A DNA stretch of 64,000 nt. Source: Lentzea kentuckyensis (GTDB lineage: Bacteria > Actinomycetota > Actinomycetes > Mycobacteriales > Pseudonocardiaceae). The translations under genes were made by a program, and so were the position numbers. The notes under the pieces are model-generated. The model was not told the origin of the DNA. It saw only the letters and a program-made list of their open reading frames with translations, and did not search any database. Numbering within the stretch: position 1 is the first letter of the stretch; the number at the start of each line of letters is the position of its first letter. The stretch spans positions 1-64,000 of the forward strand of contig NZ_MUYM01000076.1 in the NCBI RefSeq assembly GCF_002150765.1, given 5' to 3'. Below, one piece after another: positions 32,357-49,702 of the stretch.

Positions 32357-32372
32357 CTTCGACCCCCAGGAG

Positions 32373-32389
32373 CGCAACTCAGTTGCGCG
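32373..32389. repeat. Palindrome in the leader of LGFP gene 1
   Basis: Eight-base arms gcgcaact and agttgcgc flank one C. The palindrome sits between a possible minus-strand -10 (TATTGT, near 32392) and the Shine-Dalgarno, a position suited to an operator or a leader hairpin. Confidence 0.4.
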
Positions 32390-32422
32390 GACAATACGTG
32401 GTCACCTGGGAAAAATCGCCCC

Positions 32423-33829: not shown

Positions 33830-33871
33830 GTTCTCAGACCCCCTCTTCAGACAACCCTGGAGAACACGCGA

Positions 33872-33906
33872 AAGGGCCGGCACCGGTTGCCCCGGTGCCG
33901 GCCCTC
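33872..33906 (-). terminator. Terminator after LGFP gene 3
   Basis: A perfect 14-bp GC-rich stem (33873-33886 with 33892-33905) lies 20 bp beyond the stop of gene 3, with a TTT on the minus-strand side. It separates genes 2 and 3. Confidence 0.8.
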
Positions 33907-33926
33907 GTTTCCGCCGATCCGTCAGC

Positions 33927-35375
33927 TCACCTGCGCGGGCCGGACGTGGTCGTGTGGAACTGCGTCTGCGGCTGCGCCTTCGATCCGGTGACCGAGTAGA
34001 CGCACTGACCGCCGTTGTAGTCGCAGGTGATCCAGCCGTTCGTGAACTGCTGGTGGAACACCTTGGGCTGCACCTCCAGCGCGTCCGACGCGACCAGGCC
34101 GAGCGGGCTCTCGGTGCCGCCCGTCTGCCACCAGATGTCGCGGAAGTCCCAGCCCAGGGTGTGGGTCGCGGTCCCCATCGGGAAGATCGACGCGAACTCG
34201 AACTGCTGGAACGTGAACGTCGGCTGGATCCACTCGCCGGTCTGCGGCAGGCCGTAGACCGCGACGTCACCGCCGCCCCGCAGCTCCTCCAGGATCTGGC
34301 CGCGCACGAGGTGGCCGCCGGTGCGCGGGCCCCACAGGATCACCTTGTCCCGCGCGTCGCCGAACAGCACGTACACGCCGTCCGTGCCCGGTGCGGGGGT
34401 CTGGCTCGACCTCGGCCAGCCGAGCGGACCGGCGAGGCCGCCCTGCATGCCGTACTCGTCGCGCACCCGGCCGCTGATCCAGAACGCGCCGTCGTCGGCG
34501 GGACCGAGGTAAACCGTCGTCTTGTTGACGAAGTCCGTGGTGAACCCACCGTCGTGCGCCGTGGTGTCCGTAGCCGGGTAGCCGAACTGGCCACCGGGGC
34601 CACCGTTGGACTCGAGTGCGTTGCTCGCCTCGTAGTCGAGCAGGCGCGCTCCCGTCTGCGTCGACCAGTAGATCGCGCCCCTGTTCATCCTGATCGACCA
34701 GCCGTTGCCCGCCCGCTGCAGCTGGTCGCCGGCGGGCCAGTTCCGGCGGCCGGCGGCGAGCTCTTCGCGGAACCTGTCCCGCAGCGCACCGCTGATCCAG
34801 ACCGCCGACCGTTCGGGTTCGCGGTAGGTGCTCACGGCCTCGCTGAACCGCTGCTCCCAGCCCAAACGCTCCCCCACGGGGAGCAGATCACTGGTGGGCC
34901 AGCCGAACTTGCCGGTGGGGCCGCCGTTCCCGAGGTACGTGTACCTCTCCGTGCCGTGCACCCAGAACGCGCCGTAGGCGTCGGAGTAGAAGACCGAGGA
35001 TCCGTACTCGAAGTCGACGCTCGCACCCGCCTGAGCACCGCGGTTCACCTGGACCTGGTCTGTGACCGCGACCGGCCCGGAGCCGCTGCCGAAGAACCAC
35101 CTCCGGGAGATCGCACCGGAGAACCAGTGCGCGCCGGCGCTCTCCCGCCAGGTGATCACGATGTCGTACTTCGAGAACTTCGCCCAGCGCTTGCCGTCGC
35201 GCTCGACGACCTCGTCACCCACCTTGTCGCCGGCGAACGCGGCGCCACCGAGCGCCTGCCACTTCGCGTAGACGGGCGACTTCTCCCACTCGTCCGCCGC
35301 GTGAGCGGTGCCGAACGGGAGGGCGGCCGCGGCCAGCAGAGCCGCGACCACCACCAAAGAACTTCTGACCGACAT
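33927..35375 (-). CDS. Secreted LGFP-repeat protein, array member 3
   Basis: 482 residues from the ATG at 35375; GGGGGG lies about 10 bases upstream. The signal peptide MSVRSSLVVVAALLAAAALP is cut near AHA-AD. Repeats include FGWPTSD, FGYPATD and LGWPRSSQTPAPGTDG. The C-terminal Cys pair is CDYNGGQCVY, followed by a 20-residue basic, Thr/Gln-rich tail. It starts only 38 bp after the stop of gene 4, so the two are probably one transcript. Confidence 0.88.
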   Translation of the reverse strand: MSVRSSLVVVAALLAAAALPFGTAHAADEWEKSPVYAKWQALGGAAFAGDKVGDEVVERDGKRWAKFSKYDIVITWRESAGAHWFSGAISRRWFFGSGSGPVAVTDQVQVNRGAQAGASVDFEYGSSVFYSDAYGAFWVHGTERYTYLGNGGPTGKFGWPTSDLLPVGERLGWEQRFSEAVSTYREPERSAVWISGALRDRFREELAAGRRNWPAGDQLQRAGNGWSIRMNRGAIYWSTQTGARLLDYEASNALESNGGPGGQFGYPATDTTAHDGGFTTDFVNKTTVYLGPADDGAFWISGRVRDEYGMQGGLAGPLGWPRSSQTPAPGTDGVYVLFGDARDKVILWGPRTGGHLVRGQILEELRGGGDVAVYGLPQTGEWIQPTFTFQQFEFASIFPMGTATHTLGWDFRDIWWQTGGTESPLGLVASDALEVQPKVFHQQFTNGWITCDYNGGQCVYSVTGSKAQPQTQFHTTTSGPRR

Positions 35376-35413
35376 GTCTTCCGTACCCCCCAGGGAACGA
35401 CGGATCTTCCAGA

Positions 35414-36964
35414 TCACTTGCGCGGACGTGCCGCGGTCACGCGGAACTTCGTGGCCTCCGCCTTCTCCCGCGTCGCCGCCGCCGGCGAGCGGTCGCTCGC
35501 GATGGAGTAACCGCACTCACCAACGCTGTAGTCGCACCACATCAGGCCCTTGTCGAAGTCCTGCACCAGGAAGTCGGGGGACCCGAGCTGGTGGACGTCC
35601 CCGCGCGGAATGCCGAGCGGGCCGTCCACGCCACCGAGCTGCCACCAGAACGCGCGGAAGTCGCCGGCGAGCGTCGGGACGTGGTTGTCACTGCGCAGGA
35701 ACACGGTGGCCTTCTCGAACTGCTGGAACTCCGCCGTGGTCCCGATGGCCATCTGGCCGTACTGCGGGAGTCCGTACACCGCGACGTCACCGCCGGCGCG
35801 CAGCTTCTGCAGGATCAGGCCGCCGACGACGTGGGCGCCGGTGCGCGGACCCCACAGGATGACCTTGTCGAGGCTCTCGCGGAACAGCACGTACTGGCCG
35901 TCCGTGCCGGGCGCGGGCGTCTGGTCCGACTTCGGCCAGCCCAGCGGACCGGCGGTGCCGCCGTTCACGTTGTACTCGTCGCGGACCCGGCCGCCCATCC
36001 AGAAGGCGTTGCCGTCCGGGGTGACGTACACCGTCTTGCCGGTGGCGAAGTCCGTGGTCTGGCCGCCGGCGACGTCCGCGGTGTCGCTGCTCGGGTAGCC
36101 GAAGTGGCTGACGACGCCACCGGCGCGGTTGAGCTTCTCGACGGTCTTCGGGCTGATGGCGTGCGCGCCGGTGCCCGCCGACCAGTAGATGCCGCCCTTG
36201 GCCGTCTGAGCGGCCCACCCGTTGTCGTGCTGGACGGACTGGTCGTAGGAGAGCCAGCCGAAGCCGTTCGGGCCGCCCTTCTCGAGGTACTTGTCGCGCA
36301 GCGCACCGCTGATCCAGTACGCCTCCGACACGCTCGGCACCTGCTGGAACAGGCTCACGGCCTCGCTGAACCGCTGCTCGACGCCGCCGTTGTCCGCCAT
36401 CGCGATCTGGTCGCTGATCGGCCAGCCGAACAGACCGGTGACGCTGCCGGTGGCCCAGTACTTCTCCCGCTGCTTGCCGGAGAGCGCGAACGCGCCGTAG
36501 GCGTCGGAGTAGTAGACGGAATAGCCGGTGTCGTAAGCGATCGCCGCACCCGCCTGCGAGCCGCGGTTCACCGGCACCTGGTCCATCGTCGCGGCCGACT
36601 TGACGATCGCGTCACCGGGCTGCCAATGCCGCGAGATCGCACCGGACATCCAGTGCGCCCCCAGGCCTTCCTTCCAGGTGATCACGATGTCGAACTTCGA
36701 GAACCTGGCCCAGCGGATGCCGTTGGACAGGTTGATCTCGTCGCCCACCTTGTCGCCGGCGAAGGAAGCGCCGCCCAGCGCCTGCCACTTCGCGTAGATC
36801 GGCGAGTCCTCCCAGCGGCCGGCCGGCAGCTGCACGACCTCGTCGTCCGCGGCCTGGTGGACGGGAACAGGAGCGGCGCTCGCGGTACCGAGCGTGATCG
36901 GCAGGAGCGCGGCGGTCGACGCCGCGAGGGCGGCGACCAGCGCAACAGAACGTCGAACGGACAT
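35414..36964 (-). CDS. Secreted LGFP-repeat protein, array member 4
   Basis: 516 residues from the ATG at 36964, preceded by a GGGGG tract. The signal peptide ends near ASA-AP (about 42) and is followed by an acidic linker before the first repeat (WEDSPIYAKWQALGG). Motifs include FGWPISD, FGYPSSD, LGWPKSDQTPAPGTDG and LGIPRGD, the last close to the classical LGFP. CDYSVGECGY and a basic tail close the protein. It is first in a unit with gene 3, downstream of a terminator. Confidence 0.88.
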   Translation of the reverse strand: MSVRRSVALVAALAASTAALLPITLGTASAAPVPVHQAADDEVVQLPAGRWEDSPIYAKWQALGGASFAGDKVGDEINLSNGIRWARFSKFDIVITWKEGLGAHWMSGAISRHWQPGDAIVKSAATMDQVPVNRGSQAGAAIAYDTGYSVYYSDAYGAFALSGKQREKYWATGSVTGLFGWPISDQIAMADNGGVEQRFSEAVSLFQQVPSVSEAYWISGALRDKYLEKGGPNGFGWLSYDQSVQHDNGWAAQTAKGGIYWSAGTGAHAISPKTVEKLNRAGGVVSHFGYPSSDTADVAGGQTTDFATGKTVYVTPDGNAFWMGGRVRDEYNVNGGTAGPLGWPKSDQTPAPGTDGQYVLFRESLDKVILWGPRTGAHVVGGLILQKLRAGGDVAVYGLPQYGQMAIGTTAEFQQFEKATVFLRSDNHVPTLAGDFRAFWWQLGGVDGPLGIPRGDVHQLGSPDFLVQDFDKGLMWCDYSVGECGYSIASDRSPAAATREKAEATKFRVTAARPRK

Positions 36965-37003
36965 GCTTGGAAACCCCCGTGGTGAAGCTGCGAACATGCG
37001 AAC

Positions 37004-37033
37004 GGGCTGGCGTCCGAGTGCGGACGCCAGCCC
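37004..37033 (-). terminator. Terminator after LGFP gene 5
   Basis: A perfect 13-bp stem (37004-37016 with 37021-37033) with a tetraloop lies 24 bp beyond the stop of gene 5 and upstream of gene 4. Confidence 0.8.
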
Positions 37034-37056
37034 CTTCAGCCTTCAGAACTGCGAGA

Positions 37057-38613
37057 TCACTTGCGCGGAGCCGACTTGGCCACGCCGAGCTTCGTGCCCT
37101 CCGTGCGCGCCTGCTCCAGCGTCACCTTCGGCTGCGAAGACGCGGCCTGGAGCTGCGACGAGGTCCAGTAGTCGTAGTAGCACTGGTTCTCGTTGTAGTC
37201 GCAGAGCAGGTAGCCACCGTCGAAGAGCTGCACCAAGGTGTTCGGCTCCGAGCCGAACTGCACGTCACCCGTGGCCATGCCGAGGCGGCCCGAGTAGCCA
37301 CCGAGCTGCCACCAGCCGGCGCGGAAGTCCCAGCCGATGGTGATCGTCTTGCGGCCGTTGCCGTCGAAGATCGACGCCCTCGTGAACTGCTGGAAGTTGT
37401 ACGGGCCGACCGGCCCCACGCCGGTCTGCGGCAGGCCGTAGTCGCGGACGTCGCCGTCAGCGCGCAGCTTGGCGAGGTACTGGTCCTCGACCACGTGCGC
37501 ACCGGTGCTCGCGCCCCACAGGATGACCTTGCTCGGGCCGAACAGGACGTACAGACCGTTGGCGCCGGTGGTGGCGAACTGGTCCGAGGTCGGGAAGCCG
37601 AGGCGACCCGTGGGACCACCCATGTTCGTCAGGTGGTCGCGCAGCGCACCGCTGAGCCAGTGCGCGCCGGTCGTCGGCGAGTGGTAGATCGACACCGAGT
37701 TGGCGAACGTGGCGAACGTGCCGTTGCCGACGGCCTGGGTGTCCGAGTTCGGGTAGCCGGCGTGACCACCGGGGCCGCCCTGCTCGTAGTACTTGGCCGC
37801 GACCTCGCCGGTCAGGCGACGAGCACCGGTGCCGGCGCTCCAGTAGATCGTGCCGTTGGTGGCGCCGGCGTTCCAGCCGTTGTTGGCGTCGGCGGCCTGG
37901 TCACGCAACAGCCAACCCGGCGCACCGGCCGGACCGCCGTCGGCGATGTACTTGTCACGCAGCGCGCCACTGATCCAGAACGGCTCGCCGTCGGGCTTCT
38001 TGTACAGGCTGACCATCTGGCTGAAGCTCTGCGTGGTGCCACCGCCGAGGTGCGGGACCTCGTCGCTGATCAGCCAGCCGAACCCGCCGGTGATGCTGCC
38101 GTTGGCCCAGAACTTGGCCCGGTTGCTGCCGCTAATGGCGAACGCGCCGTACGCGTCCGAGTAGTAGACCGAGTTGCCGTTGTCGAACGCGGACGCGACC
38201 CCGAGCTGGGAACCGCGGTTGATCTGCACCTGGTCCATGATGGCGACGGTCTTCGTGACGCCGTTGCTGTCCAGCCACAGCTGCCACTTCGCGGCCACGG
38301 CACCGGAGAACCAGAACGCGCCGACGCCGTCCTTCCAGGTGATGACGACGTTCTTGGAGAACTTGGCGTAGTGGATGCCGTCCTCCTGGACGACCTCGTC
38401 CCCGACCTTGTCACCGGCGAACGAGGCGCCACCGAGCGCCACCCACTTCTTGTAGACCGGCGAGTCCTCCCACACACCGGCCTGCGCCCTCACGACGGGA
38501 GCCTGCTGCTGCACCACGGGTGCGGCAGAGGCTGCCGTGGAAGTGACGATGGGCAAAAGTCCCGCCGTCGCGGCCGCAATGGCAGCGACGAGCGAGACAG
38601 CACGACGAGACAT
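37057..38613 (-). CDS. Secreted LGFP-repeat protein, array member 5 (most divergent)
   Basis: 518 residues from the ATG at 38613 with GGGGGAG upstream. The signal peptide ends near ASA-AP (about 50), then a Gln/Val-rich linker. The repeats are the same in order, but the sequence departs most from the others: FGWLISDEV, HAGYPNSD and RLGFPTSDQF, the last an exact LGFP. The Pro-Ala-Pro-Gly-Thr-Asp block of the others reads ATTGANGLYVLF here. The C-terminus is CDYNENQCYY plus a 40-residue tail. Being first in the array and most divergent, it may be the older copy; that is inference. Confidence 0.88.
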   Translation of the reverse strand: MSRRAVSLVAAIAAATAGLLPIVTSTAASAAPVVQQQAPVVRAQAGVWEDSPVYKKWVALGGASFAGDKVGDEVVQEDGIHYAKFSKNVVITWKDGVGAFWFSGAVAAKWQLWLDSNGVTKTVAIMDQVQINRGSQLGVASAFDNGNSVYYSDAYGAFAISGSNRAKFWANGSITGGFGWLISDEVPHLGGGTTQSFSQMVSLYKKPDGEPFWISGALRDKYIADGGPAGAPGWLLRDQAADANNGWNAGATNGTIYWSAGTGARRLTGEVAAKYYEQGGPGGHAGYPNSDTQAVGNGTFATFANSVSIYHSPTTGAHWLSGALRDHLTNMGGPTGRLGFPTSDQFATTGANGLYVLFGPSKVILWGASTGAHVVEDQYLAKLRADGDVRDYGLPQTGVGPVGPYNFQQFTRASIFDGNGRKTITIGWDFRAGWWQLGGYSGRLGMATGDVQFGSEPNTLVQLFDGGYLLCDYNENQCYYDYWTSSQLQAASSQPKVTLEQARTEGTKLGVAKSAPRK

Positions 38614-38755
38614 GCTGCTGCTCCCCCAGGATTGTGTACGTCTGTCAACGAAACCCGAAGGCCCCACCAGAGGGTTCCGTCAGCAGGAAACGACGCCAGT
38701 CTGCCCGAAGAATGGCGTTCTGGCGAGAAAAATCTGAAGATGCTTCAAACACATC

Positions 38756-38838: not shown

Positions 38839-39846
38839 TTACTGGGCCGCTGCGGCGGCCGCGGCGATCCGCGCCTCCGCCTGACGCTTGCGGTACGTCG
38901 CGATGGCGGCGGCCGCACCCGCGGTCACGACGTCGGCGATGATGAACATCAGGCGCGAGGCGACCGCGAAGGCCAGGGCCTGCACCGGGTCGATGCCACT
39001 GGCGGCGAGCACCGCGACGATGACGCCCTCACGCACGCCCGCACCGGACGGCAGGAAGAACGCGAACAGGCCGGCGGTCAGGCTGATCGCCATGGCGCCG
39101 ATGCACAGGATCAGGCCGTTCACGCCGGGCGCGCCGACGGAGTTCGCCAGCAGCCACATGTGGGCGCCGAACGCCGCGTAGCCGAGCATGGAGAAGCCGA
39201 GGACCTTGCCGATCGTGCCCCAGCGCAGCTGGTGGTCGAGCGGCGGGCGGCGCAGCGTCTTGAGCACCAGCGAGGTGCCCCACGTCAGGATCTTCGGGTG
39301 CAGCGCGATCAGGCCGATCGGCAGCAGCGCGAACAGCCAGACCGCCTGCGGGGTCTCCTTGAAGATCACCGGCAGCGCCATGATGCCGAGCAGCAGCGAC
39401 GCGACGGTGGCGATGCCGAGCTGGATCAGCGAGCCGGTGAAGATGCGGGCACGCGGGAGGCCTGCCTTGCGGCCCAGCTCCATCTGCAGAAGGTAGGCCC
39501 ACACCGAGCCGGGCACGTACTTGCCGAGGCCGCCGACCAGGCAGATCATGCCGCCGCGGAACACGCCGATCGGCTTGCCCAGGTCGTCGATGATCGTCTG
39601 CCACGCGATGGTGTTGAACCCGATGGCCGCCATGACCGCGATCTGGCTGAGCAGGCTCGACTGCCACGCGACCGCCGAGATCGTGTGCCACACGTCGTTC
39701 CACTTGGTGATCAACGCGTAGGCGGTGAACCCGATGACCAGGACCACCATGAGCCGACGACCCCACTGGATGATCTTGCCCTTGGTCGTCTTAGTGCTCT
39801 CTGGCGGAACCTCGGCGATGTCCGCCTCTGCCTCGACAGTGGTCAT
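38839..39846 (-). CDS. Polytopic membrane protein of the lysylphosphatidylglycerol-synthase TM / AglD family
   Basis: 335 residues with about eight membrane segments after a charged N-terminus. It carries the family pattern GGLGKYVPGSVWAYLLQ (about 106-122) and FFLPSGAGVREGVIVA (about 274-289). Members with only this domain are suspected lipid or glycolipid flippases or transporters. GGAG lies 9 bases before the ATG. It starts 43 bp after the LuxC-like stop and is the last gene of the acyl operon, so it may move the operon's product across the membrane. That role is inference. Confidence 0.83.
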   Translation of the reverse strand: MTTVEAEADIAEVPPESTKTTKGKIIQWGRRLMVVLVIGFTAYALITKWNDVWHTISAVAWQSSLLSQIAVMAAIGFNTIAWQTIIDDLGKPIGVFRGGMICLVGGLGKYVPGSVWAYLLQMELGRKAGLPRARIFTGSLIQLGIATVASLLLGIMALPVIFKETPQAVWLFALLPIGLIALHPKILTWGTSLVLKTLRRPPLDHQLRWGTIGKVLGFSMLGYAAFGAHMWLLANSVGAPGVNGLILCIGAMAISLTAGLFAFFLPSGAGVREGVIVAVLAASGIDPVQALAFAVASRLMFIIADVVTAGAAAAIATYRKRQAEARIAAAAAAAQ

Positions 39847-39889: not shown

Positions 39890-41119
39890 TCAGACGGTGA
39901 CCGTCGTGATGCGGCTGAACTCGGACAGCAGATCGTAGCCGTCCCAAACAGCCGCGAAACTGAGGGCCGACCCGAACGGCACGACGCGGTCGATGCCCCG
40001 GCCGGCGAGCCGACGGGTGAAGGTCAGCACCTCGTCCCGGTCGAAGCCGAACACGCTGAGCGTCTGGTCCTTGCGTTGCACGATCCGGCCGAACTCGGCC
40101 AGGTCGGCGAGGGTCGTCTGCGGGAACGTACCGACGCCGAGCCATTCGCGCGGGACCTCGTCCGGCGCGGTCAGTTCGATCGTCGCCACCGCGTTGCCGT
40201 CGAAACGGATCTCCGTGGCGTGCCCTTCGGCCGCGACGCCGTACGCCGAAACGCGCTTCTGCACCGCCATGGCGGGCTCGACCACGAACTGCTTGCTCGC
40301 CACGACCTCGGCGAGCAGCGTGCGGAACTCGTCGCGGGCCGGCTTGGCGCGCTCGGCGTCGCCGACCCAGAACAGGGTGCGCGGCGACGAGCAGGCGGCC
40401 TGGTCGAACCAGTAGGAGTCGTTGTAGAACCCGATGGCCGCGTCCCTGCGCTGCTCGGGCGTCGCGGCCTCCCAGCCGGCGACCGAGACGGCGGCGAACG
40501 ACGCTCGGTCCGGGAACGTGAGGTCGCGGGCGTGCGGGGCCAGCGCGGACTTGCGCACCTCGGCCACCGATCGGTCGCCACCCCAGATGACCCGCAGGTC
40601 ACAGGCAGCGGACAGGGCGGAGGTGACGGCCTCGTCGCGACCATAGGTGATCATGCGCTGGGTCTGCGCGATGGCCGGGTGGGCCTCCGCGAGCGAGGAG
40701 TTCAGCGCCTCGATCACGGCCTGCGCGGCACCGGCGGAACGCGGCGAGATCCGCACGACGTTCGGGTTGCCGGCGAGCGCGGACAGCGCCCACGAGTACA
40801 CGAAGATCGTGTCCACGTTGGCCGGTGGCACGTGGAAGACGAGTCCGCGCGGGAACCTCAGCCGGTCGCCGGTGGTCTCCAGGCCGGCCAGCGCCTTCGC
40901 GATCTCGCCCTTGCGCAGGAAGAAGCCCAGCGACGCGAGTTCCGGGTAGCGCCGCGCGGTGGCAGGCGCGAGGAGCTTGCGCGCGAACTTCACCAGGAAC
41001 TGGACGACGCGCTCGTCGCCCACGGACAGATAGCCGCCTTCGGGCTCCGCCGTGATCTCGGCGAGCAGGGCGTCGACCTCGACGGCCGGGCCTGCCGGGA
41101 AACGCTGCTCAACACTCAC
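39890..41119 (-). CDS. LuxC-like acyl-CoA/acyl-protein reductase
   Basis: 409 residues from a GTG overlapping the stop of the LuxE-like gene (GTGA). It has the LuxC pattern: LVFHVPPANVDTIFVYSW (93-110), LAGNPNVVRISPR, and the probable catalytic cysteine in FDQAACSSPRTLF (C243). LuxC reduces an acyl thioester to an aldehyde with NADPH, taking the acyl group from its LuxE partner. There are no luxA/luxB genes here, so the aldehyde must serve something other than light. It lies between the LuxE-like protein and a membrane transporter-like protein. Confidence 0.88.
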   Translation of the reverse strand: MSVEQRFPAGPAVEVDALLAEITAEPEGGYLSVGDERVVQFLVKFARKLLAPATARRYPELASLGFFLRKGEIAKALAGLETTGDRLRFPRGLVFHVPPANVDTIFVYSWALSALAGNPNVVRISPRSAGAAQAVIEALNSSLAEAHPAIAQTQRMITYGRDEAVTSALSAACDLRVIWGGDRSVAEVRKSALAPHARDLTFPDRASFAAVSVAGWEAATPEQRRDAAIGFYNDSYWFDQAACSSPRTLFWVGDAERAKPARDEFRTLLAEVVASKQFVVEPAMAVQKRVSAYGVAAEGHATEIRFDGNAVATIELTAPDEVPREWLGVGTFPQTTLADLAEFGRIVQRKDQTLSVFGFDRDEVLTFTRRLAGRGIDRVVPFGSALSFAAVWDGYDLLSEFSRITTVTV

Positions 41120-42183
41120 GCCGGGCTCCCGCTGAACGTGTCGGAACATCCGCGCGCCTCGGCGCGGGGAAGACGGCCGAGCACCGAGAAGCGCTTGCCG
41201 GGCCAGTCGCCGTCGTCGACGCCGTGCACGACACCGAGGTCCTCGGTGAGCAGGACGTGGCCGGGGTAGGACCGCGGCACCGTGCTCACCACCTCGATGA
41301 CGCCCGGCACGCCGACGGGTTGCTCGCGCCACGTCTCCGGGTCACGGATGACGACGTCCGCGAAGTCGGGGCAGTACAGCGAGTTGCCGCTCGGGCCCTC
41401 GAGGAAGACGGTGCCGAGCTGCTCGACCATGCCGTAGTAGTTGTGGATCCGGGTCAGGCCCGTGTCCTGCGCGAACGCGCGGCGGAACTCCGCGTTGTCG
41501 ACGGCGCGGTCGATCAGCTTCTTCCAGCCACCGGAGTGGATGAGGATGCCGTTCGACAAGTCCAGCTTGTGCTCGCGCGCGACCTCGTAGAGGTACTGCC
41601 ACACCATGAAGGTGAAGCCGAAGATGAGGAACGGCTCGTTGCCGTGGTTCGCGAGGAAACCCTTGATGGCCTCGACGTCCGGGCGGTCGTTCTCGTCCAG
41701 CGCGTAGACGTGCTTGCGGCCGAAGTTCGCCATGCCGAGCACGCCGGCACCGCGCGCCGAGAACGAGCGGCGGTTCTTGATGATGCCGATGGTGTCGACC
41801 ATCAGCATCGGCAGGCGCTGGTCGCCGAGCACGGTGCGCAGCGTCTTGCCGAGGTAGCGCGGCTGGTCGGCCGCCGCCTGCTTGTCCAGATAGATCCGGG
41901 ACACCTCGGCGCCGGTGGTGCCGGACGAGGTGAGCACCTTGAAGACCTCGTCGTCCGGCACGCTCTTGAGCACGTGGTGCTTGAACATCCGCACCGGCAG
42001 CCACGGCAGCTGCTCGACCGAGTCGAACGAGGTGCCACGGGCGATCCCGAGCGAGCTAAGGATCCGGTCGTACGGCTCGCCGCCGGCGCGGTGGTGCTCG
42101 GTCAGTTCGGTGAGCACGGGCAGCAGCGCCGCCTCGCGCTCGGCCTGGCTCAGGCCGAACACGCTCTCGGCAGTGGTGGTCAC
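41116..42183 (-). CDS. LuxE-like acyl-protein synthetase
   Basis: 355 residues with the adenylating signature VLTSSGTTGAEVSRIYLD (83-100) and the LuxE-type segments LPMLMVDTIGIIKNRRSFSARG, IFGFTFMVWQYLY and NYYGMVEQLGTVF. LuxE (Pfam acyl-protein synthetase) activates a fatty acid as acyl-AMP and passes it to a Cys before transfer to LuxC. It is joined on both sides by GTGA overlaps to the AMP-ligase and LuxC-like genes. Chain length and the natural acyl substrate are unknown. Confidence 0.87.
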   Translation of the reverse strand: MTTTAESVFGLSQAEREAALLPVLTELTEHHRAGGEPYDRILSSLGIARGTSFDSVEQLPWLPVRMFKHHVLKSVPDDEVFKVLTSSGTTGAEVSRIYLDKQAAADQPRYLGKTLRTVLGDQRLPMLMVDTIGIIKNRRSFSARGAGVLGMANFGRKHVYALDENDRPDVEAIKGFLANHGNEPFLIFGFTFMVWQYLYEVAREHKLDLSNGILIHSGGWKKLIDRAVDNAEFRRAFAQDTGLTRIHNYYGMVEQLGTVFLEGPSGNSLYCPDFADVVIRDPETWREQPVGVPGVIEVVSTVPRSYPGHVLLTEDLGVVHGVDDGDWPGKRFSVLGRLPRAEARGCSDTFSGSPA

Positions 42184-43565
42184 GCGCGTCCCTCCAGGGA
42201 GCGGTAGTCGATCTTGCCGCTGGCCAGCAGCGGAAGTGCGTCGATGTCCCGCACGTCGAATCCGGACACGTGCATGTGCAGCTTCTCGGACAGTGCCTTG
42301 GCAGCTGCCTTGCGCGTGTCGGCGGCACAGTTCTCGACCCAGACGACGACCTTGTCGCCGGCCGGCACCGCGGCCGCCGCACCGATGTCCAACCCGGAAC
42401 CGCGCAGCATTTGTTCCAGGTCGTCGAGGTTGACCCGGTTGCCGAAGACCTTGCCGATCCGCTTCAGCCGGCCGGTGATGAACAGGTAGCCGTCCGCGTC
42501 CAGGCGGCCGAGGTCGCCCGTTTCGAGCAGACCGTCGCGAGTGTCTGGTTCGGACAGCTCCTCTTCGGACTCCGCGTAACCCATCATCACGTTCGGGCCG
42601 CGGTACAGCACTTCGCCGACGACGTCCGGATCGGAGGTCTCGGAGCCGTCGTCGAGACGGATCGAGAACGCGCCGCCGGGCAACGCGGGACCGGCGCTGC
42701 CGATCTTCTCGGCCAGCTTCTCCGCGGGCACGGTGGCCATCCGCGGCGCCGCCTCGGTCTGGCCGTACATGACGAACATACGGCCACCAGCGGCGATCAT
42801 CTTGTCGTTGAACTCGACGACCAGGTCCTCGCGCAGCTTGCCGCCCGCCTGCGTGATCGTGCGCAGGCTCGGGTACTTGGCCGGGTCGAAGCGCAGCCTT
42901 TTGAGCATCTCGTAGTGGTACGGGACGCCGGCCAGCGAGGTGATCTTGTGTTCCTCGACGGCCGTCCAGAACGGACGCCCCATCACACCGGTCGGCTCCA
43001 CCACGACGGTCGCGCCGCGCAGCAGGTGGCTGTTCAGCACGGACATGCCGTAGCTGTAGTGCAACGGGAGGCTGGTCGGCGCCACCTCGTCGGCGGTGAT
43101 GCCCAGGACCTCGGCGATCGCCTCGGCGTTGGCCAGCACGGCCTGCCGTGACAGCCGGACGAACTTGGGGTTGCCGGTCGAGCCGCTGGTCGGCAGCAAC
43201 ACGGCGAGGTCGGGGTGCGGCACGACGCCGGTGGCTTCCTCGCGCACCCAGTCCGCGCTGTAACCGGCGGGCGGCTCACCCTCGCCACCGAGCACGGCGG
43301 CTGGACGGAAGCGCTCGACCAGGCCGAGGAGAACCTCGCGGTCCTGACCGGCGTCGAGCAGTGCGACGGCCCGGCCGGACTCGAACGCGGCGACGTAGCG
43401 CAGCACGCTCGGCACGTCGACGGACGTGCGGGCGAACAGCACACCGGCGGGCAGCGCGGTGAGCTCAGCAGCAATCTTGTCGACGGCAGCGCGGAGCTCG
43501 GGTCCGGCGAGCACCTCGCCGGACGTCGCGTCCACGAGGCGTGCGCCGGGGGCCAGCAGGCTCAC
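42180..43565 (-). CDS. AMP-dependent acyl/amino-acid ligase (ANL superfamily)
   Basis: 461 residues, somewhat short for the family. The P-loop is PTSGSTGNPKFVRLSR (125-140), the A5 motif is MYGQTEAAPRM, the A7/A8 region runs TGDLGRLDADGYLFITGRLKR, and the final lysine lies in ASGKIDYRSL. With the ACP gene in the same operon, the likely job is to adenylate a carboxylic acid and load it on the ACP phosphopantetheine. The acid is unknown. GTG start, with 4-bp overlaps at both ends. Confidence 0.88.
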   Translation of the reverse strand: MSLLAPGARLVDATSGEVLAGPELRAAVDKIAAELTALPAGVLFARTSVDVPSVLRYVAAFESGRAVALLDAGQDREVLLGLVERFRPAAVLGGEGEPPAGYSADWVREEATGVVPHPDLAVLLPTSGSTGNPKFVRLSRQAVLANAEAIAEVLGITADEVAPTSLPLHYSYGMSVLNSHLLRGATVVVEPTGVMGRPFWTAVEEHKITSLAGVPYHYEMLKRLRFDPAKYPSLRTITQAGGKLREDLVVEFNDKMIAAGGRMFVMYGQTEAAPRMATVPAEKLAEKIGSAGPALPGGAFSIRLDDGSETSDPDVVGEVLYRGPNVMMGYAESEEELSEPDTRDGLLETGDLGRLDADGYLFITGRLKRIGKVFGNRVNLDDLEQMLRGSGLDIGAAAAVPAGDKVVVWVENCAADTRKAAAKALSEKLHMHVSGFDVRDIDALPLLASGKIDYRSLEGRA

Positions 43566-44293
43566 AGCACGAGCCCCCCGTCGACGCCGAGCACCTGCCC
43601 CGTCACGAACGAGGCCTCGTCGCTGACCAGGAACTTGATGACCTTCGCGACCTCGTCGGCGGCACCGAGGCGGCCGAGCGCGGTGTCCTTGCGGACGCGG
43701 TCCAGCACCTCTTCGGACTGGCCTGCGGTCAGATCGGTCTCGATCACGCCGGGCGCGACCGCGTTGACGCGGATGCCGTACCGGCCGAGCTCCTTGGCGG
43801 AGGACTTCGCGAGCGACGCGACCGCGGCCTTGGTGGCGGCGTACACGGACTGACCCGCGTTGCCGCGTTCACCGACGATCGAGGCGAGCAGCACGATCGA
43901 GCCGGTCTTCTTGCGCATCATGGCGCGCGCGGCCGCCTGGACGGACGCGATCGCACCGGTGACGTTCGTGTCGAACATGCGTGCCACGTGGTCGTCGCCG
44001 ATCATGCCGATCAGCGCGCCCTCCATGACGCCGGCGCTCGCGACCAGCGCGTCGATCCGGCCGTGCTCCTTGGCGATCTGCCGGAACACGTCCTTCACCG
44101 CAGTGGTGTCCGTCACATCGAGCGCGAGGCCGCTGACCTGGGGACCCAGCTCGGCGGCGCGCTGCTTGGCGACTGCCTCGTCCCGGCCGGTCAGCACGAC
44201 CGTCGCCCCGGCTTCGGCCAGCGCGGCGGCGGTGGCGAGACCGATGCCCCTGGTACCACCGGTGACGACTGCGACCTTGCCGGAGAGAGTCAC
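43562..44293 (-). CDS. Short-chain dehydrogenase/reductase (FabG-like)
   Basis: 243 residues. The NADP site is VVTGGTRGIGLA (9-20), the catalytic Ser/Tyr/Lys lie in LLASIVG and YAATKAAVA, and the C-terminal SFVTGQVLGVDGG is typical of 3-oxoacyl-ACP reductases. In this operon it probably reduces a 3-keto group on the ACP-bound acyl chain or the aldehyde product. The GTG start overlaps the ACP stop (GTGA). Confidence 0.88.
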   Translation of the reverse strand: MTLSGKVAVVTGGTRGIGLATAAALAEAGATVVLTGRDEAVAKQRAAELGPQVSGLALDVTDTTAVKDVFRQIAKEHGRIDALVASAGVMEGALIGMIGDDHVARMFDTNVTGAIASVQAAARAMMRKKTGSIVLLASIVGERGNAGQSVYAATKAAVASLAKSSAKELGRYGIRVNAVAPGVIETDLTAGQSEEVLDRVRKDTALGRLGAADEVAKVIKFLVSDEASFVTGQVLGVDGGLVL

Positions 44294-44526
44294 TCCGCGC
44301 CCAGGTCCTTGACCATGTCGAGCGCGACCTTGAAGCTGCTCATGTCGATGACCTGCTCGGTCTCGAACTGCACGTCGAACTCGTCCTCGATGGCCGCGAC
44401 CAGCGCCATGTGGCCGACCGAGTCCCACTCGTCGATGTCGCGGTACTTCAGGTTCTCGACGTCGACGTCCTCACCGAGCGCGAGCGCCTCGACGAACGTG
44501 TTCCGCAGCCGATGCTGCAAGTCCAT
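44290..44526 (-). CDS. Acyl carrier protein
   Basis: 78 residues, acidic and helical. The phosphopantetheine serine is S36 in IDEWDSVGHMALV. The DSVGHM form rather than DSLDTVE marks a specialised carrier, not the housekeeping fatty-acid ACP. It is the first gene of the operon that continues with SDR, ligase, LuxE-like, LuxC-like and membrane protein genes, and it would hold the acyl group through those steps. It is divergent from the aminotransferase gene across a 259-bp gap that should hold both promoters. Confidence 0.9.
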   Translation of the reverse strand: MDLQHRLRNTFVEALALGEDVDVENLKYRDIDEWDSVGHMALVAAIEDEFDVQFETEQVIDMSSFKVALDMVKDLGAE

Positions 44527-44785: not shown

Positions 44786-45883
44786 ATGATCCCAATCACC
44801 GTTGTCGACGTGAGCGACGCGGAGCCCTATGTGCTCGAGGTGCTTCGCTCGGGCGTCATCGCTCAGGGTCCGATGGTCAAGCGCTTCGAGGACACCTTCG
44901 CCGAGATCGCGGGTGTCGACCACGCCATTGCCGTCAACAACGGCACGACGGCTCTCGTCGCGGCGATCCAGGCGCTGGACCTGCAGCCCGGCGACGAGGT
45001 CGTGACCTCGCCGTTCACCTTCATCGCCACGCTCAACGCGATCCTCGAGGCCGGCGCCACCGCCCGGTTCGCGGACATCCGCGAGGACGACTTCTGCGTC
45101 GACCCCGAGGCGATGGCGGCCGCGATCACGCCGCGGACCAAGGTCCTCATGCCGGTCCACCTGTACGGCCAGACCGCCGACATGGGCAAGATCGCCCCGC
45201 TGGCCGAGGAGCACGGTCTCGCGCTCGTCGAGGACAGCGCGCAGGCGCACGGCGCGAAGTTCGACGGGAAGGGCGCCGGCAGCTTCGGCCTCGGCTGCTT
45301 CTCCTTCTACGCGACCAAGAACATCACAACCGGCGAGGGTGGCATCATCACCACCAACGACGCCGAGATCGCCGACAAGCTGCGGGTCATGCGCAACCAG
45401 GGCATGCGCGCCCGCTACGAGTACGTGATGGCCGGTCACAACTACCGCCTCACCGACCTCGCGGCCGCCGTCGCGATCCCGCAGCTCGCGAAGATCGACG
45501 AGATCACCGCGAAGCGCAAGGCGAACGCCGCCAAGCTCAACGAGGGCCTCGCCGGCATCACCGGCCTGCGCACGCCGTCCGAGCTGCCCGGCCGCTCGCA
45601 CGTGTGGCACCAGTACACGGTCCTGATCGGCGACGACGCCGCGCTGACCCGTGACGAGTTCGCCGCCAAGCTCACCGAGCGCGGCATCGGCAACGGCATC
45701 TACTACCCGAAGCTCGTCACGGACTACGACGCGTACCGCGGTCACAAGCAGGTCGTCATGTCGGAGACCCCGGTGGCGGCGAAGATCGCGCAGCAGTGCT
45801 TGTCGATCCCCGTGCACGCCCACCTGACCGACGACCAGCTCGACACGGTCATCGGCACCATCCGGGAGGTGCTGGGCGCATGA
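44786..45883 (+). CDS. DegT/DnrJ/EryC1/StrS-type sugar aminotransferase
   Basis: 365 residues. The PLP lysine is K178 in CFSFYATKNITTGEGG, with D150 and Q153 in VEDSAQAHGA contacting the cofactor; NNGTTALVAA binds its phosphate. Such enzymes transaminate keto nucleotide-sugars with glutamate. The next gene, a Gfo/Idh dehydrogenase, overlaps by ATGA and would make the 3-keto substrate, as in the WlbA/WlbE and GnnA/GnnB pairs that yield 3-amino sugars. A GGAG close to the ATG serves translation. Confidence 0.92.
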   Translation: MIPITVVDVSDAEPYVLEVLRSGVIAQGPMVKRFEDTFAEIAGVDHAIAVNNGTTALVAAIQALDLQPGDEVVTSPFTFIATLNAILEAGATARFADIREDDFCVDPEAMAAAITPRTKVLMPVHLYGQTADMGKIAPLAEEHGLALVEDSAQAHGAKFDGKGAGSFGLGCFSFYATKNITTGEGGIITTNDAEIADKLRVMRNQGMRARYEYVMAGHNYRLTDLAAAVAIPQLAKIDEITAKRKANAAKLNEGLAGITGLRTPSELPGRSHVWHQYTVLIGDDAALTRDEFAAKLTERGIGNGIYYPKLVTDYDAYRGHKQVVMSETPVAAKIAQQCLSIPVHAHLTDDQLDTVIGTIREVLGA

Positions 45884-46857
45884 CCGCGAACCCCCGCATC
45901 CTGCTCGTCGGCACCGGCACGATGGGCTCGCTGCACGCCCGCGTGCTCGCCGGTTCCGACCGCTGCGACCTGGTCCGCGTGGCCGAGCCCCGCGAAGAGG
46001 CCGGTCGCATGATCGCCGAGCGCTACGACGCGCAGTGGAGCCCCGAGATCGGCGACCTGTCCGACGTGGACGCCGTCGTCATCGCCGCCGCGACCGAGTA
46101 CCACCACGGTCTCGCGGTCGAGGTCCTGAACCAGGACAAGCCGCTGCTCATCGAGAAGCCGGTCTGCCCCGGCATCGAGGCCTCCGAGGAGGTCGTGGCG
46201 CTGTCCGCCCAGCGCGGTGTGCCGCTGATGTGCGGTCTGCTGGAGCGCTACAACCCGGCCGTCCTCACGGCGTTGTCGCTGGTCGACAACCCGGTGCACG
46301 TCACGGCGACCCGCCACTCCCCGTACGCGCCGCGCATCCGCACGGGCGTCTCGTGGGACCTGCTGGTGCACGACGTCGACCTGGCGATCCGCGTGTTCGG
46401 CGGCCAGGACCCGACGGACGTGCAGGGCACGTTCGGCTACTTCCACCCGACCTCGGTCGAGGGCGCGGAGGACGTGGCAGAGACGGTGCTGGGCTTCGCC
46501 AACGGCGGCCTCGCCACCGTGTCCGCGAGCCGCATCGGCCAGCGCAAGGTCCGGTCGCTGACGATCACCGAGGTCGACCGCCTGATCGAGGCCGACCTGC
46601 TGCGCCGCGACGTGACGATCTACCGCCACGTCTCGAACGACGCCGCCACGCCGGACGGCCGCGGCTACCGCCAGCAGACGATCATCGAGATCCCCGAGCT
46701 GATCTCGGCCCGCGAACCGCTGGCCGCGCAGCTCGACCACTTCCTCGACATCGTCGCGGGCAAGGCCGACGCGGACGCCGAGCGTTCCGCGATCCTGCCC
46801 TCGCACCGCGTTGTGGCGAAGGTGTTCGACCAGCGGACTCAGGTCGCCGGCGTCTGA
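45880..46857 (+). CDS. Gfo/Idh/MocA family sugar dehydrogenase
   Basis: 325 residues. The Rossmann motif LLVGTGTMGSLHARVLAG is at 8-25, the family motif LLIEKPVCPG carries the conserved Lys near residue 90, and the VSWDLLVHDVDLAIR segment carries the active-site His. It should oxidise a sugar or nucleotide-sugar hydroxyl using NAD. The ATGA overlap ties it to the aminotransferase, and a terminator ends this two-gene operon. Confidence 0.9.
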   Translation: MTANPRILLVGTGTMGSLHARVLAGSDRCDLVRVAEPREEAGRMIAERYDAQWSPEIGDLSDVDAVVIAAATEYHHGLAVEVLNQDKPLLIEKPVCPGIEASEEVVALSAQRGVPLMCGLLERYNPAVLTALSLVDNPVHVTATRHSPYAPRIRTGVSWDLLVHDVDLAIRVFGGQDPTDVQGTFGYFHPTSVEGAEDVAETVLGFANGGLATVSASRIGQRKVRSLTITEVDRLIEADLLRRDVTIYRHVSNDAATPDGRGYRQQTIIEIPELISAREPLAAQLDHFLDIVAGKADADAERSAILPSHRVVAKVFDQRTQVAGV

Positions 46858-46910: not shown

Positions 46911-47024
46911 GTTTCAGGCCGGATACGTTTGCATCACGACGCGAAAATCCGGCAAACGTCGCGCCACTCCCCGACGACTCGCCAGTACCAGGTCACGAGC
47001 CTGGGCGGACTCATAGGGGGACTC

Positions 47025-49061
47025 ATGGCATACGACCAGCACCAGCGGTTCGTGCAATTCGTTCCTGGGGGGAACGGAGTCATCTACGCGATTCAAGCGG
47101 ACGGACTGCTGCTGCGTTACGAGCATTCGGGCTGGCTGACCGGAACGCCGACGTGGGCCAACGGCGCGGGGGCGCAGATCGGCAACGGCTTCCAGCAGTT
47201 CCGCACCGTCTTCGCCGCGGCGGACGGCCAGATCTTCGGCGTCACCGCGAGCGGTGACCTCCGCTGGTACAAGCACCTCGGCGGCGGGGCCTGGCACGTG
47301 AACAGCGGCTCGACCATCCGCACCGGCCTGCAGGTCTACCCGCGGATCTTCGGTGGCTGGAACGGCGTCTTCTACGCCGTCGACACCAACGGCAAGCTGC
47401 GGTGGTTCAAGTACCTGGCCGGCGACGGCACCAACTCGTGGCACACCAACAGCGGCAACATCATCAGCAACAACAGCTGGAAGCCGTTCTACGAGCTGTG
47501 GGCCGACCCGAACGGCGTCATCTACGGCATCCACACGGGCAGCAACGTGCTGCAATGGTGGCGCTACACGTCCGGTGACGGCACGAACGGCACGTGGGTG
47601 AACGGCGGCAACGCCTACTCGATCGGCAGCGGCTGGTCCGACGACACCCAGAAGACCTGGCTCTCCAACGGTTCCGGCACCCACTACGTGGTGTGGCTGG
47701 ACGGCGCCACCACGCCGGGTTTCGACGACAAGCTGATGTGGTTCCGGCTGTTGAACTCCGAGACGATCAGCGGCAACTTCACGGGCCAGTGGGTCAACGG
47801 CGGAGCGCCGCTGCAGGTCGGCTCCGGGTTCACCATCGAGAAGACCGCGTCGCTGCAGGGCTACGCCACCGACACCAGCCCGCGACCCACCTATCCGCAG
47901 GGGTTCGCGGTGTCGAGCAGCTTCACGACGGTCGAGGCGACGATCGAACGCCTCGCCGTGCCGGGCCAGACGTCCGGCACCGTCGTGTGGGGCCCGCAGT
48001 CGGTGGCCGGCAGCCTCCAGTACGTGCCGGGTGACTACCGGTCGGGCGGCTGCGACTGGGCCACGACGTTCTCGCTGACCATCCCGGCGACCTGGAAGTC
48101 CGGCGCGTACGTGTGCCGGCTGCGCGGCCTGCTCAACGGCACCCCGCACCTGCGCTACGAGATTCCGTTCGCCGTGAAGCCCCCGGCGCCGACGGCGAAG
48201 CTCGCGGTGCTCCTGCCGACGAACACCTACAACGCGTACAACACGTGGGGTGGCCACAACAACTACACGACCGTCGGCCAGGGCGGTGTGCAGCGCGTCT
48301 GCACGTCGTTCCGTCCCAACAACGCCGTGTGGACCGACGACCGTGCGGTCCTGAGCCACACCTACTACTCGGACCTGCTGTTGCTGCGGTGGATGGTGCA
48401 GAACAACATCGAGTTCGACCTCTACCAGGACGGTGACCTGAACGCCGACGGCACGTGGCTGGGTCAGTACAAGGCCCTCGTCATCGGCAGCCACTCCGAG
48501 TACTGGTCGCAGCTCATGAAGGACAGGGTCAACACCTACCTGTCCAACGGCGGCCGGGTCGTGAACACCGGCGGCAACACCTTGTTCGCGCGCATCTCCT
48601 GGAACGCGGGCGGCGACGCCGTCGTCTTCCGCGCCGCCAACGGCTCGCAGACCGACAACTGGTACGCCAACCTCGGCCAGCCCACCCGCGACGTGCTCGG
48701 CGCCGACTGGGACGACTCGGAGTTCCTGACCTGGGGCGCGTACGAGACGCTGCTGCCCGCGCACCCGTTCCTCGCGGGCACCAGCCTCTCGCTGGGCAGC
48801 ACGTTCGGTGCCGTGTCGTACAACATCTCCGGCAGCGGCTGGGAGACCGACCGCTGCCCGACTCCGCCGAAGCCGGGCACGGAGATCATCGCCGTGGGGA
48901 ACAACAGCGGCGGCCCCAACGGCGGTCACATGTTCAAGTGGACGCGGTCCGGCGGTGGCTGGGTGTTCAGCACCGGCTCGATCTCGTTCAACGGGACGCT
49001 CGCCGTGGACGCGGTGGCGTCGAAGATCCTGCTGAACGTGATGACCGCGGCGGCTCTTTAG
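47025..49061 (+). CDS. Tachylectin-domain protein fused to an N,N-dimethylformamidase beta-like domain
   Basis: 678 residues from an ATG with GGGGG six bases upstream. The first 240 residues are a tachylectin-2-like beta propeller with five or more repeats (GVIYAIQADGLLLRYEHSGW, GVFYAVDTNGKLRWFKYLAG). The rest resembles the N,N-dimethylformamidase large-subunit C-terminal domain: APTAKLAVLLPTNTYNAYNTWGG, YKALVIGSHSEYW and RVVNTGGNTLFARISW, a glutamine-amidotransferase-like fold. There is no signal peptide. Lectin domains of this type bind GlcNAc/GalNAc, so a glycan target is plausible. The 3' end overlaps the next, convergent gene by 4 bp. Confidence 0.8.
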   Translation: MAYDQHQRFVQFVPGGNGVIYAIQADGLLLRYEHSGWLTGTPTWANGAGAQIGNGFQQFRTVFAAADGQIFGVTASGDLRWYKHLGGGAWHVNSGSTIRTGLQVYPRIFGGWNGVFYAVDTNGKLRWFKYLAGDGTNSWHTNSGNIISNNSWKPFYELWADPNGVIYGIHTGSNVLQWWRYTSGDGTNGTWVNGGNAYSIGSGWSDDTQKTWLSNGSGTHYVVWLDGATTPGFDDKLMWFRLLNSETISGNFTGQWVNGGAPLQVGSGFTIEKTASLQGYATDTSPRPTYPQGFAVSSSFTTVEATIERLAVPGQTSGTVVWGPQSVAGSLQYVPGDYRSGGCDWATTFSLTIPATWKSGAYVCRLRGLLNGTPHLRYEIPFAVKPPAPTAKLAVLLPTNTYNAYNTWGGHNNYTTVGQGGVQRVCTSFRPNNAVWTDDRAVLSHTYYSDLLLLRWMVQNNIEFDLYQDGDLNADGTWLGQYKALVIGSHSEYWSQLMKDRVNTYLSNGGRVVNTGGNTLFARISWNAGGDAVVFRAANGSQTDNWYANLGQPTRDVLGADWDDSEFLTWGAYETLLPAHPFLAGTSLSLGSTFGAVSYNISGSGWETDRCPTPPKPGTEIIAVGNNSGGPNGGHMFKWTRSGGGWVFSTGSISFNGTLAVDAVASKILLNVMTAAAL

Positions 49062-49702
49062 GCCTCTGCGTCTTCCTCGGCCTTCGCGAACTCGCCGGCG
49101 GGCGCGCCCCAGAGGACTTCCTCACCGCGCGCCTCGGCGAGTTCACGACGGCGCTTGTTCTCCGCGCGCACCCGCTCGATCTCGGCGTCGATGTACTCCT
49201 GCTCGTAGCGCTGGAACACCCGTGCGGGGTTGCCGGCGACGAGCGAACGCGCGGGCACGTCCTTGGCCACCACGGACAGCGGCTGCACGGTGGCGAAGTC
49301 GCCGATGGTCACGCCCGGCATGATCACGCTGTTGCCGCCGATGAAGCAGCCCTTGCCGATGCGGACCGGCTTGCGCTCGATCAGGTCGCTGCCGGAGTGG
49401 TTCTCCAGTGCCATGTTCGCGAGCCAGCTGGAGTGCGTGAAGATCAGGCAGTTGAGGCCGATCGACGTGTGCTCGCCGATCTCCATGCCACCGGAGGCGT
49501 CCAGCACGGCGCCCTCGCCGATCCAGCAGTGGTCGCCCATCTTCAGCTGGTCGGGGCTGATCACCTTGGCGCGCTCGCGAATGCGCGTGGTGGCGGGAAG
49601 ACCGTAGAGCGCGGCGCGCTCGGAGTCGTTCATGTACTGCCCGACGAGGTCGGTGAGGATGTGCTTGCGGAGGCGGTTGCTCCGCTCGTCGTCGAAGAAC
49701 AT
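49058..49702 (-). CDS. Hexapeptide-repeat O/N-acyltransferase (LbetaH)
   Basis: 214 residues. The central part is a left-handed beta helix with hexapeptide repeats (MGDHCWIGEGAVLDASGG, IGKGCFIGGNSVIMPGVTIG) and the family His in IFTHSSWLANM. A charged helical tail follows. It should acetylate or acylate a sugar. Its ATG overlaps the stop of the upstream glycosyltransferase gene (TGATG), so it acts in the same pathway, perhaps on the aminosugar made by the DegT enzymes. Confidence 0.85.
   Translation of the reverse strand: MFFDDERSNRLRKHILTDLVGQYMNDSERAALYGLPATTRIRERAKVISPDQLKMGDHCWIGEGAVLDASGGMEIGEHTSIGLNCLIFTHSSWLANMALENHSGSDLIERKPVRIGKGCFIGGNSVIMPGVTIGDFATVQPLSVVAKDVPARSLVAGNPARVFQRYEQEYIDAEIERVRAENKRRRELAEARGEEVLWGAPAGEFAKAEEDAEA

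Follow-up and report, generated by a model that had tools for sequence, protein, structure and literature searches.

The 64,000 nucleotides of Lentzea kentuckyensis DNA analysed here (hereafter the window) make up most of a 66 kb contig, NZ_MUYM01000076.1, of a 10.2 Mb genome. On the minus strand, from 44526 to 39890, the window carries an operon of five genes encoding an acyl carrier protein (ACP), a FabG-like short-chain dehydrogenase (SDR), an AMP-forming acid ligase, a LuxE-like and a LuxC-like protein. On balance, our results tip slightly in favor of this operon being a cassette that supplies a hydroxy-acyl donor for the decoration of a surface amino sugar. The original prediction for this DNA, made from the sequence alone, had the enzymes produce a fatty aldehyde, an alcohol or a lipid anchor; a small hydroxy-acyl group on the nitrogen of an amino sugar is the better supported product.

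In the proposed pathway, LuxE would adenylate one carboxyl of a small di-acid (malate- or succinate-like) and hold the acyl group on its cysteine C346, from which it would move to C243 of LuxC and be reduced with NAD(P)H to a semialdehyde. The SDR would then convert the aldehyde to a hydroxy-acid, and the AMP ligase would activate the other carboxyl and load the dedicated ACP. A left-handed beta-helix or GNAT transferase would deliver the acyl group to the nitrogen of a nucleotide-activated amino sugar, in this locus presumably made by a Gfo/Idh dehydrogenase and a DegT aminotransferase (a GnnA/GnnB-like pair), and glycosyltransferases together with a PF03706 membrane protein would assemble or move the glycan. 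Our best guess for the C4 acid is 2,4- or 3,4-dihydroxybutanoate. We infer every reaction, the acid and the acceptor from the observed genes, their active sites, their linkage and the occurrence of the sugar locus without the cassette. As the operon encodes two acid activators (LuxE and the ligase) and one ACP, with motifs conserved in 80 of 80 relatives, two activations of one molecule offer the simplest explanation; a further acid activator that has an ACP to itself calls for another carboxyl or for another acid. If this reading is true, a widespread cassette gains a definite, testable chemistry, an unassigned flagellin mass obtains a candidate structure, and an acyl group is predicted for the amino sugars on the surface of Amycolatopsis, Lentzea and Micromonospora.

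Gene content and conservation of the operon

The first gene of the operon encodes the ACP (44290–44526; 78 amino acids (aa); serine S36 in a DSVG motif) and is followed by those for the SDR (43562–44293; 243 aa; S138/Y151/K155), the ligase (42180–43565; 461 aa; TSGSTG and K451), the LuxE-like acyl-protein synthetase (41116–42183; 355 aa; SSGTTG and C346) and the LuxC-like acyl-protein thioester reductase (39890–41119; 409 aa; C243), all on the minus strand. A GTGA overlap was present at 4 of 4 junctions, and the gene of a flippase-like membrane protein (38839–39846, minus strand) starts 43 bp past luxC. Coordinates, strand, gene content, overlaps and spacing were all correct in the original prediction. 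Pfam models matched above their cut-offs for LuxC (PF05893, 88.4 vs. 21 bits), LuxE (PF04443, 144.8 vs. 24.9 bits), the ligase (AMP-binding, 141.6 vs. 29.9 bits), the SDR (adh_short_C2, 212.2 vs. 27 bits) and the membrane protein (PF03706, 54.5 vs. 33.4 bits). The ACP gave no Pfam match at E 0.001 and matched the NCBIfam ACP models weakly (22.4 bits, cut-off 106); the DSVG motif with its serine is nonetheless present. The best PDB sequence matches of the ligase were oxalate-CoA and feruloyl-CoA ligases, and the models nearest to the SDR were those of FabG (227 bits, cut-off 298).

We compared the operon across the best 80 of 193 LuxC matches, with 20 kb of DNA fetched for each locus (about 10 kb on either side); counts out of 80 refer to these loci, in which LuxC is present by construction, since they were picked as LuxC relatives. 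Among the genera represented were Lentzea, Umezawaea, Saccharothrix, Kibdelosporangium, Amycolatopsis, Micromonospora and Dactylosporangium, and the LuxC of the window was 95% identical to that of Lentzea alba. The five genes were colinear in 78 of the 80 loci, a gene order kept too often to be ascribed to chance; the two exceptions had an insertion (L005) or displaced ACP and SDR genes (L071). Every residue and motif given above for the five proteins was invariant in 80/80 loci. An even sample of 396 actinobacterial genomes contained 22 that scored above the PF04443 cut-off, and strong cassette-type LuxE and LuxC occurred in only three of the 20 best loci of this sample (the window's own, L089 and L091). 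The five-gene set is uncommon among actinobacteria. LuxE proteins of other types were also seen: one with LuxC beside DUF692 and YcaO genes in Streptomyces (L088, 7857–10435), and one without LuxC beside genes for a fatty acyl-AMP ligase, a carrier and a cysteine desulfurase in Priestia (L087, 7884–9053).

The nearness of the SDR to the FabG models also fits an ordinary 3-hydroxyacyl (e.g., 3-hydroxybutyryl) N-acylation, in which the ligase would charge the ACP with a 3-keto acid, whose keto group would be reduced by the SDR, and a transferase would use the product, LuxE and LuxC being separate. LpxA-type enzymes use 3-hydroxyacyl-ACP, which counts for such a route. Yet it gives no role to LuxE and LuxC, although their genes are joined to the rest by overlaps and kept in the same order in 78/80 loci, and we regard it as improbable.

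Relation to the lux enzymes

In lux systems LuxE activates a free acid and passes the acyl group via cysteines to LuxC for reduction. C346 of the window LuxE aligned with the cysteine of the C-terminal KGCS stretch in Photobacterium LuxE (7xc6_E), and C243 of LuxC, the cysteine already singled out in the original prediction, aligned with the DQQAC cysteine of Photobacterium LuxC (7xc6 complex, E 0.0011); we take the aligned 7xc6 cysteines to be the acyl-carrying residues of the LuxE–LuxC complex. The AlphaFold model of LuxC (39 rows, pLDDT 89.3) had its best fold match in the LuxC chain 7xc6_A (TMq 0.76), with 18% identity over the fold alignment. The fold, the relay cysteines and the adenylating site are shared with the lux LuxC–LuxE pair, whereas the second ligase, the ACP and the SDR are additions with respect to the lux fatty-acid reductase.

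This kinship raises the alternative of a fatty acid being reduced by LuxE and LuxC, its aldehyde or alcohol becoming a lipid anchor or a decoration of a surface glycan. LuxE and LuxC of lux systems use long-chain acids, as the family names record, the PF03706 membrane gene adjoins luxC, and two papers on Gram-negative gene sets propose a liposugar in the passages available (PMC7874193, PMC4875605). However, the window LuxC reached 35.6 of 750 bits with the long-chain LuxC equivalog model and the window LuxE 60.2 of 550 bits with that of LuxE, both far under the cut-offs. In a midpoint-rooted LuxE tree, which carried long-branch warnings and in which row L095 was disregarded, a well supported branch of 2.33 (support 100/99) lay between the lux LuxE and the cassette LuxEs. 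A lipid anchor in itself requires neither a second ligase nor an ACP nor an N-acyltransferase. We therefore consider a fatty product unlikely, and the flagellin masses described below also speak against it.

The predicted occurrence of LuxE/LuxC chemistry without a recognised luciferase partner was supported. Neither luxA/luxB nor luxD was found among the window genes scanned, which were not all of those present, and no search for luxA/luxB extended beyond the window. The sole luciferase-like gene met among the genes scanned (28394–29470), which the original prediction does not mention, is of the F420 type and has counterparts near 9 of 12 loci that lack the cassette; for these two reasons a luxAB-type role of this monooxygenase was rejected. 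The HAD hydrolase gene at 29226–30131 likewise lies near the locus with or without the cassette. A luciferase-superfamily gene 10 kb from the operon could indicate a redox or stress system of the lux kind, comparable to mycobacterial mel2, for which the published excerpts describe LuxA- and LuxC-like members. The same excerpts show no clear LuxE in mel2, and with the F420 type and cassette-independent occurrence of the monooxygenase in addition, a system of this kind is highly improbable.

An amino-sugar locus with and without the cassette

Divergent from the operon, on the plus strand, lie the genes for a DegT/DnrJ/EryC1 aminotransferase (44786–45883) and a Gfo/Idh/MocA dehydrogenase (45871–46857), which we propose for a GnnB-like step and a GnnA-like UDP-GlcNAc 3-dehydrogenase step, respectively. 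The best model for the dehydrogenase was NF040723 (UDP-GlcNAc 3-dehydrogenase; 132 bits, cut-off 450) and its best PDB match 7bvj; perosamine synthetase was nearest to the aminotransferase in the PDB. On the other side of the operon, past an array of LGFP-repeat genes, an LpxA-like left-handed beta-helix acyltransferase is encoded (30128–30847, minus strand; H108 in a VAHDC motif), which scored 171.9 bits with the lpxA model (cut-off 231) and whose histidine was kept in 64 of 68 rows.

The Gfo/Idh and DegT pair was present in 63/80 loci. An LpxA-like gene was found in 64 loci and a PseH-like gene in eight, with no locus having both, and five loci had only a hexapeptide gene of the WcaF type. 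The ACP gene was immediately preceded by an LpxA-like gene in 59/80 loci, a PF03706 gene lay directly downstream of luxC (same strand, up to 600 bp) in 45/80, and the cassette was flanked directly by both in 40/80. The cassettes of Hamadaea (L061) and Nonomuraea (L086) lie amid pseudaminic-acid (Pse) genes (PseB 494, cut-off 408, and PseI 461, cut-off 340, in L061; PseI 439 in L086; matches to PseC, PseG and PseH under the cut-offs), and Salinispora (L080) has similar neighbors by tblastn. PseB and PseI were not found in the fetched DNA of the remaining six PseH-like loci, and the PseH-like protein of L068 scored 63 bits (cut-off 93). The surface-glycan setting proposed in the original prediction gains support from the frequency of the amino-sugar pair, and also from the same gene types in flagellin-glycan islands of Aeromonas and enterobacteria.

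We further examined 200 genomes of the window's family, the Pseudonocardiaceae. Those with a LuxE match at E <1e-100 (41/200, identity at least 54%) were counted as cassette genomes, and 15 others with matches of E 1.2e-14 or weaker were not. At thresholds of E up to 1e-30 and 1e-60, respectively, an LpxA-like gene occurred in 38/41 cassette genomes vs. 26/159 others (Fisher p ~3e-20) and a Gfo/Idh gene in 38/41 vs. 18/159 (p ~1e-23). Of the 18 genomes with a Gfo/Idh gene and without the cassette, 17 also had an LpxA-like gene; the two were close together in 12, which were picked as cassette-less loci, and not close in the other five. DegT, Gfo/Idh and LpxA-like genes were kept in 12/12 of these loci and PF03706 in 8/12, while the ACP, ligase, LuxE and LuxC profiles had no match in any of them and the SDR profile a single weak one (L120). 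Their flanks contained the HAD and luciferase-family genes in 9/12 and serS in 8/12. Since the amino-sugar locus exists alone, the five genes appear to be an optional addition to it, and related genome pairs with and without the cassette at the same locus allow a direct comparison.

Related gene sets in other phyla

A Deinococcus plasmid carries the five genes in unchanged order, preceded by sugar transferase and EpsG genes and followed by a (hexapeptide) acetyltransferase gene. A Ponticoccus plasmid has ACP, SDR, ligase and LuxE genes followed by an overlapping PseH-like gene, with LuxC 2 kb further on the opposite strand. On a Rhizobium anhuiense plasmid (L084, 3200–12239) we found LpxA-like, ACP, ligase, DegT, LuxE and LuxC genes and a transketolase split over two genes. 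The respective LuxE proteins were 55, 48 and 41% identical to that of the window, and sequence kinship of the cassette is established to these three sets only. More tentatively, and with somewhat less than even confidence, we suggest that the five genes form a portable small-hydroxy-acyl-ACP cassette, spread over three phyla and pluggable into LpxA/Gnn cell-wall pathways (Pseudonocardiaceae, Micromonosporaceae), pseudaminic-acid pathways and Deinococcus exopolysaccharide pathways. If so, actinomycete surface glycans would carry a tetronate-like N-acyl group, and the units of 102 and 376 Da left unassigned in Aeromonas flagellin would be explained.

The Rhizobium set, in which a two-gene transketolase and a DegT aminotransferase stand beside LuxE and LuxC, also speaks for a use of the aldehyde itself, either as acceptor of a two-carbon unit or in reductive amination or C-branching of a sugar. 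This reading would leave the ACP and the ligase of the actinomycete loci unexplained, and the scan of window genes revealed neither a transketolase nor an aldolase. For the window, such a fate of the aldehyde seems unlikely.

Flagellin masses in Aeromonas

Published passages on A. piscicola AH-3, in which the five genes are present, report a pseudaminic derivative of 376.14 Da and an unassigned unit of 102 Da on flagellin; a mutant without the glycosyltransferase gene that follows luxC kept the 376 Da sugar and lost the rest, including the 102 Da unit. We calculated that Pse5Ac7Ac with one acetyl replaced by C4H6O3 has a mass of 376.148, and that C4H6O3 itself amounts to 102.03. A 3-hydroxybutanoyl group would give 360.15, which is the Pse mass predicted by the 3-hydroxyacyl route and differs from 376.14, and a dodecanoyl group 456.28. 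As far as the published excerpt goes, the 1491 Da glycan of an Aeromonas that carries the cassette has also been assigned in a way that leaves no mass for a fatty chain. On this reckoning, the masses in cassette-bearing Aeromonas appear to agree with a C4H6O3 acyl and not with a lipid. The single-sugar strain A. caviae Sch3 is described as carrying plain Pse5Ac7Ac (m/z 317.1; PMC9290775); the available text assigns single-sugar strains to groups I and III, and describes the five genes for group II.

Observations against a small hydroxy-acyl donor

Several observations weigh against the small hydroxy-acyl reading. As the SDR is FabG-like by family, reduction of a 3-ketoacyl group is as natural for it as that of an aldehyde. 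The Fisher p-values overstate the independence of the genomes, which are related. One genome (G404) has the cassette and a Gfo/Idh gene and no LpxA-like gene at the locus, with a weak LpxA match on another contig. Three of the 41 cassette genomes (G453, G461 and G506) carry a diverged ligase-LuxE-LuxC set (LuxE 54–56% identical) with no sugar gene among the 19 neighbors scanned, and the Pse genes that could be expected in the three genomes lacking both LpxA-like and Gfo/Idh genes were not found in the fetched 20 kb. L122 and L123, in which no ACP was found, lie near genes for a P450, methyltransferases and AurF; L121, where all five gene types occur and SDR and ACP have changed places, lies near those for argininosuccinate synthase/lyase and a formyltransferase. 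The surroundings of the three diverged sets likely resemble secondary metabolism, within which the same chemistry may operate. As for the association with glycan genes assumed in the original prediction, 38 of the 41 genomes have a Gfo/Idh gene and three show no sugar gene among the neighbors scanned.

The transferase raises a further difficulty. Three of the 80 loci (L047, L053 and L071, the first on a short contig) had no transferase of the three types above threshold. The LpxA-like gene of the window lies 9 kb from the operon, and its product shares 41% identity with the protein encoded next to the ACP in L014. In a tree built from every third of the 59 ACP-adjacent proteins (20), all six non-adjacent ones and all 12 from cassette-less loci, it fell in a clade with six cassette-less loci (68–82% identical) and zero ACP-adjacent rows, whereas the other clade held all 20 ACP-adjacent rows and the other six cassette-less loci. 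Since the LpxA-like gene of the window is distant and outside the ACP-adjacent clade, its product need not be the transferase that uses the ACP here; a WcaF/maltose-acetyltransferase-type hexapeptide acyltransferase (49058–50005, minus strand) is an alternative candidate. Enzymes of the ACP-adjacent clade do not depend on the cassette, given that this clade includes six cassette-less loci.

Outside the actinomycetes, the split transketolase of Rhizobium suggests another fate of the aldehyde there, possibly a two-carbon extension. In the Aeromonas flagellin, the units of 102 and 376 Da could equally contain an isomeric group such as O-methylglyceroyl. The Aeromonas papers, in the passages available, neither say explicitly that the five genes are absent from A. 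caviae Sch3 nor describe a mutant of these five genes alone.

Other genes of the window

Upstream of the hexapeptide acyltransferase gene, also on the minus strand, are genes for a GT4 glycosyltransferase (49702–50901), an NAD-dependent sugar epimerase/dehydratase (50972–51913) and a second DegT/DnrJ/EryC1 aminotransferase (51946–53127). Among the window genes scanned, which did not comprise every gene, there was neither PseB nor PseI. Between the flippase and LpxA-like genes, five related LGFP-repeat proteins are encoded in tandem (30902–38667, minus strand) and are linked to the locus by position only; all five cluster together, and Pfam LGFP was found in the two examined. Members of this cluster occurred in L002, L003, L012 and the window only. 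The galactofuran synthesis genes glf and GlfT2 (25063–28325) adjoin the amino-sugar locus, and a plus-strand gene at 46929–49061, in which a tachylectin domain is fused to DMFA2_C (N,N-dimethylformamidase-like), clusters with genes of only 4/80 loci. An open reading frame at 53124–54686 (minus strand), considered as a conserved unknown, was rejected as an antisense shadow of the FAD oxidoreductase gene at 53103–54482 (plus strand), whose conservation accounts for its own.

Comparison with known systems

The gene set itself is known in Gram-negative bacteria. Flagellin-glycosylation islands of Aeromonas group II contain all five genes in identical order, in AH-3 downstream of pseH (PMC7874193), and enterobacterial flagellin-glycan islands the same gene types (PMC4875605). 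Both papers, in the passages available, read LuxE and LuxC as fatty-acid reduction, from which a lipid part ("liposugar") of the glycan is proposed without a test. The claim in the original prediction of an undescribed pathway is borne out only in part, the five-gene set being already in print. The islands resemble the window in the five gene types, their order (as given in these papers) and their place beside amino-sugar and glycosyltransferase genes; they differ in having pseudaminic-acid neighbors and flagellin as target, whereas the window and 63/80 relatives have the Gfo/Idh and DegT pair. The place of the set as an optional module of an actinomycete amino-sugar locus, and the specific chemistry, were not met in the literature searched: among the matches listed (titles, abstract starts, term counts and passages) no description of the cassette in actinomycetes was found, and a search combining dihydroxybutyryl, pseudaminic and flagellin returned no paper. 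The Shewanella sfmABCDE genes, considered as the same set, were rejected as different genes on the published excerpt.

A close parallel is the tetronate pathway of Vibrio cholerae O1, where, in the passages available, RfbN contains a LuxE domain, RfbL is said to activate 2,4-dihydroxybutanoate and RfbK is a possible carrier (PMC4772473, PMC12208996, PMC3441752). By these descriptions, the module VC0248–VC0252 shares with the window a carrier, an AMP ligase and a LuxE/LuxC-type reductase, and, under the reading proposed for the window, also a small hydroxy-acid as substrate of the ligase and an acyl group placed on an amino-sugar nitrogen. RfbN, we assume, joins LuxE and LuxC in one protein, and RfbM is presumably an alcohol dehydrogenase of another family. 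The window operon has no such RfbM-type alcohol dehydrogenase and encodes an SDR instead.

A possible counterpart of the amino-sugar part is the GnnA/GnnB/LpxA branch, by which acylated UDP-GlcNAc3N is supplied for certain kinds of lipid A, with roles as given in the available part of PMC5644692. The corresponding window proteins match the models under the curated cut-offs. The host is a Gram-positive actinomycete, in which, to our knowledge, no lipid A is known. Like that branch, the window brings together genes for a putative dehydrogenase, a putative transaminase and an LpxA-like acyltransferase in one locus.

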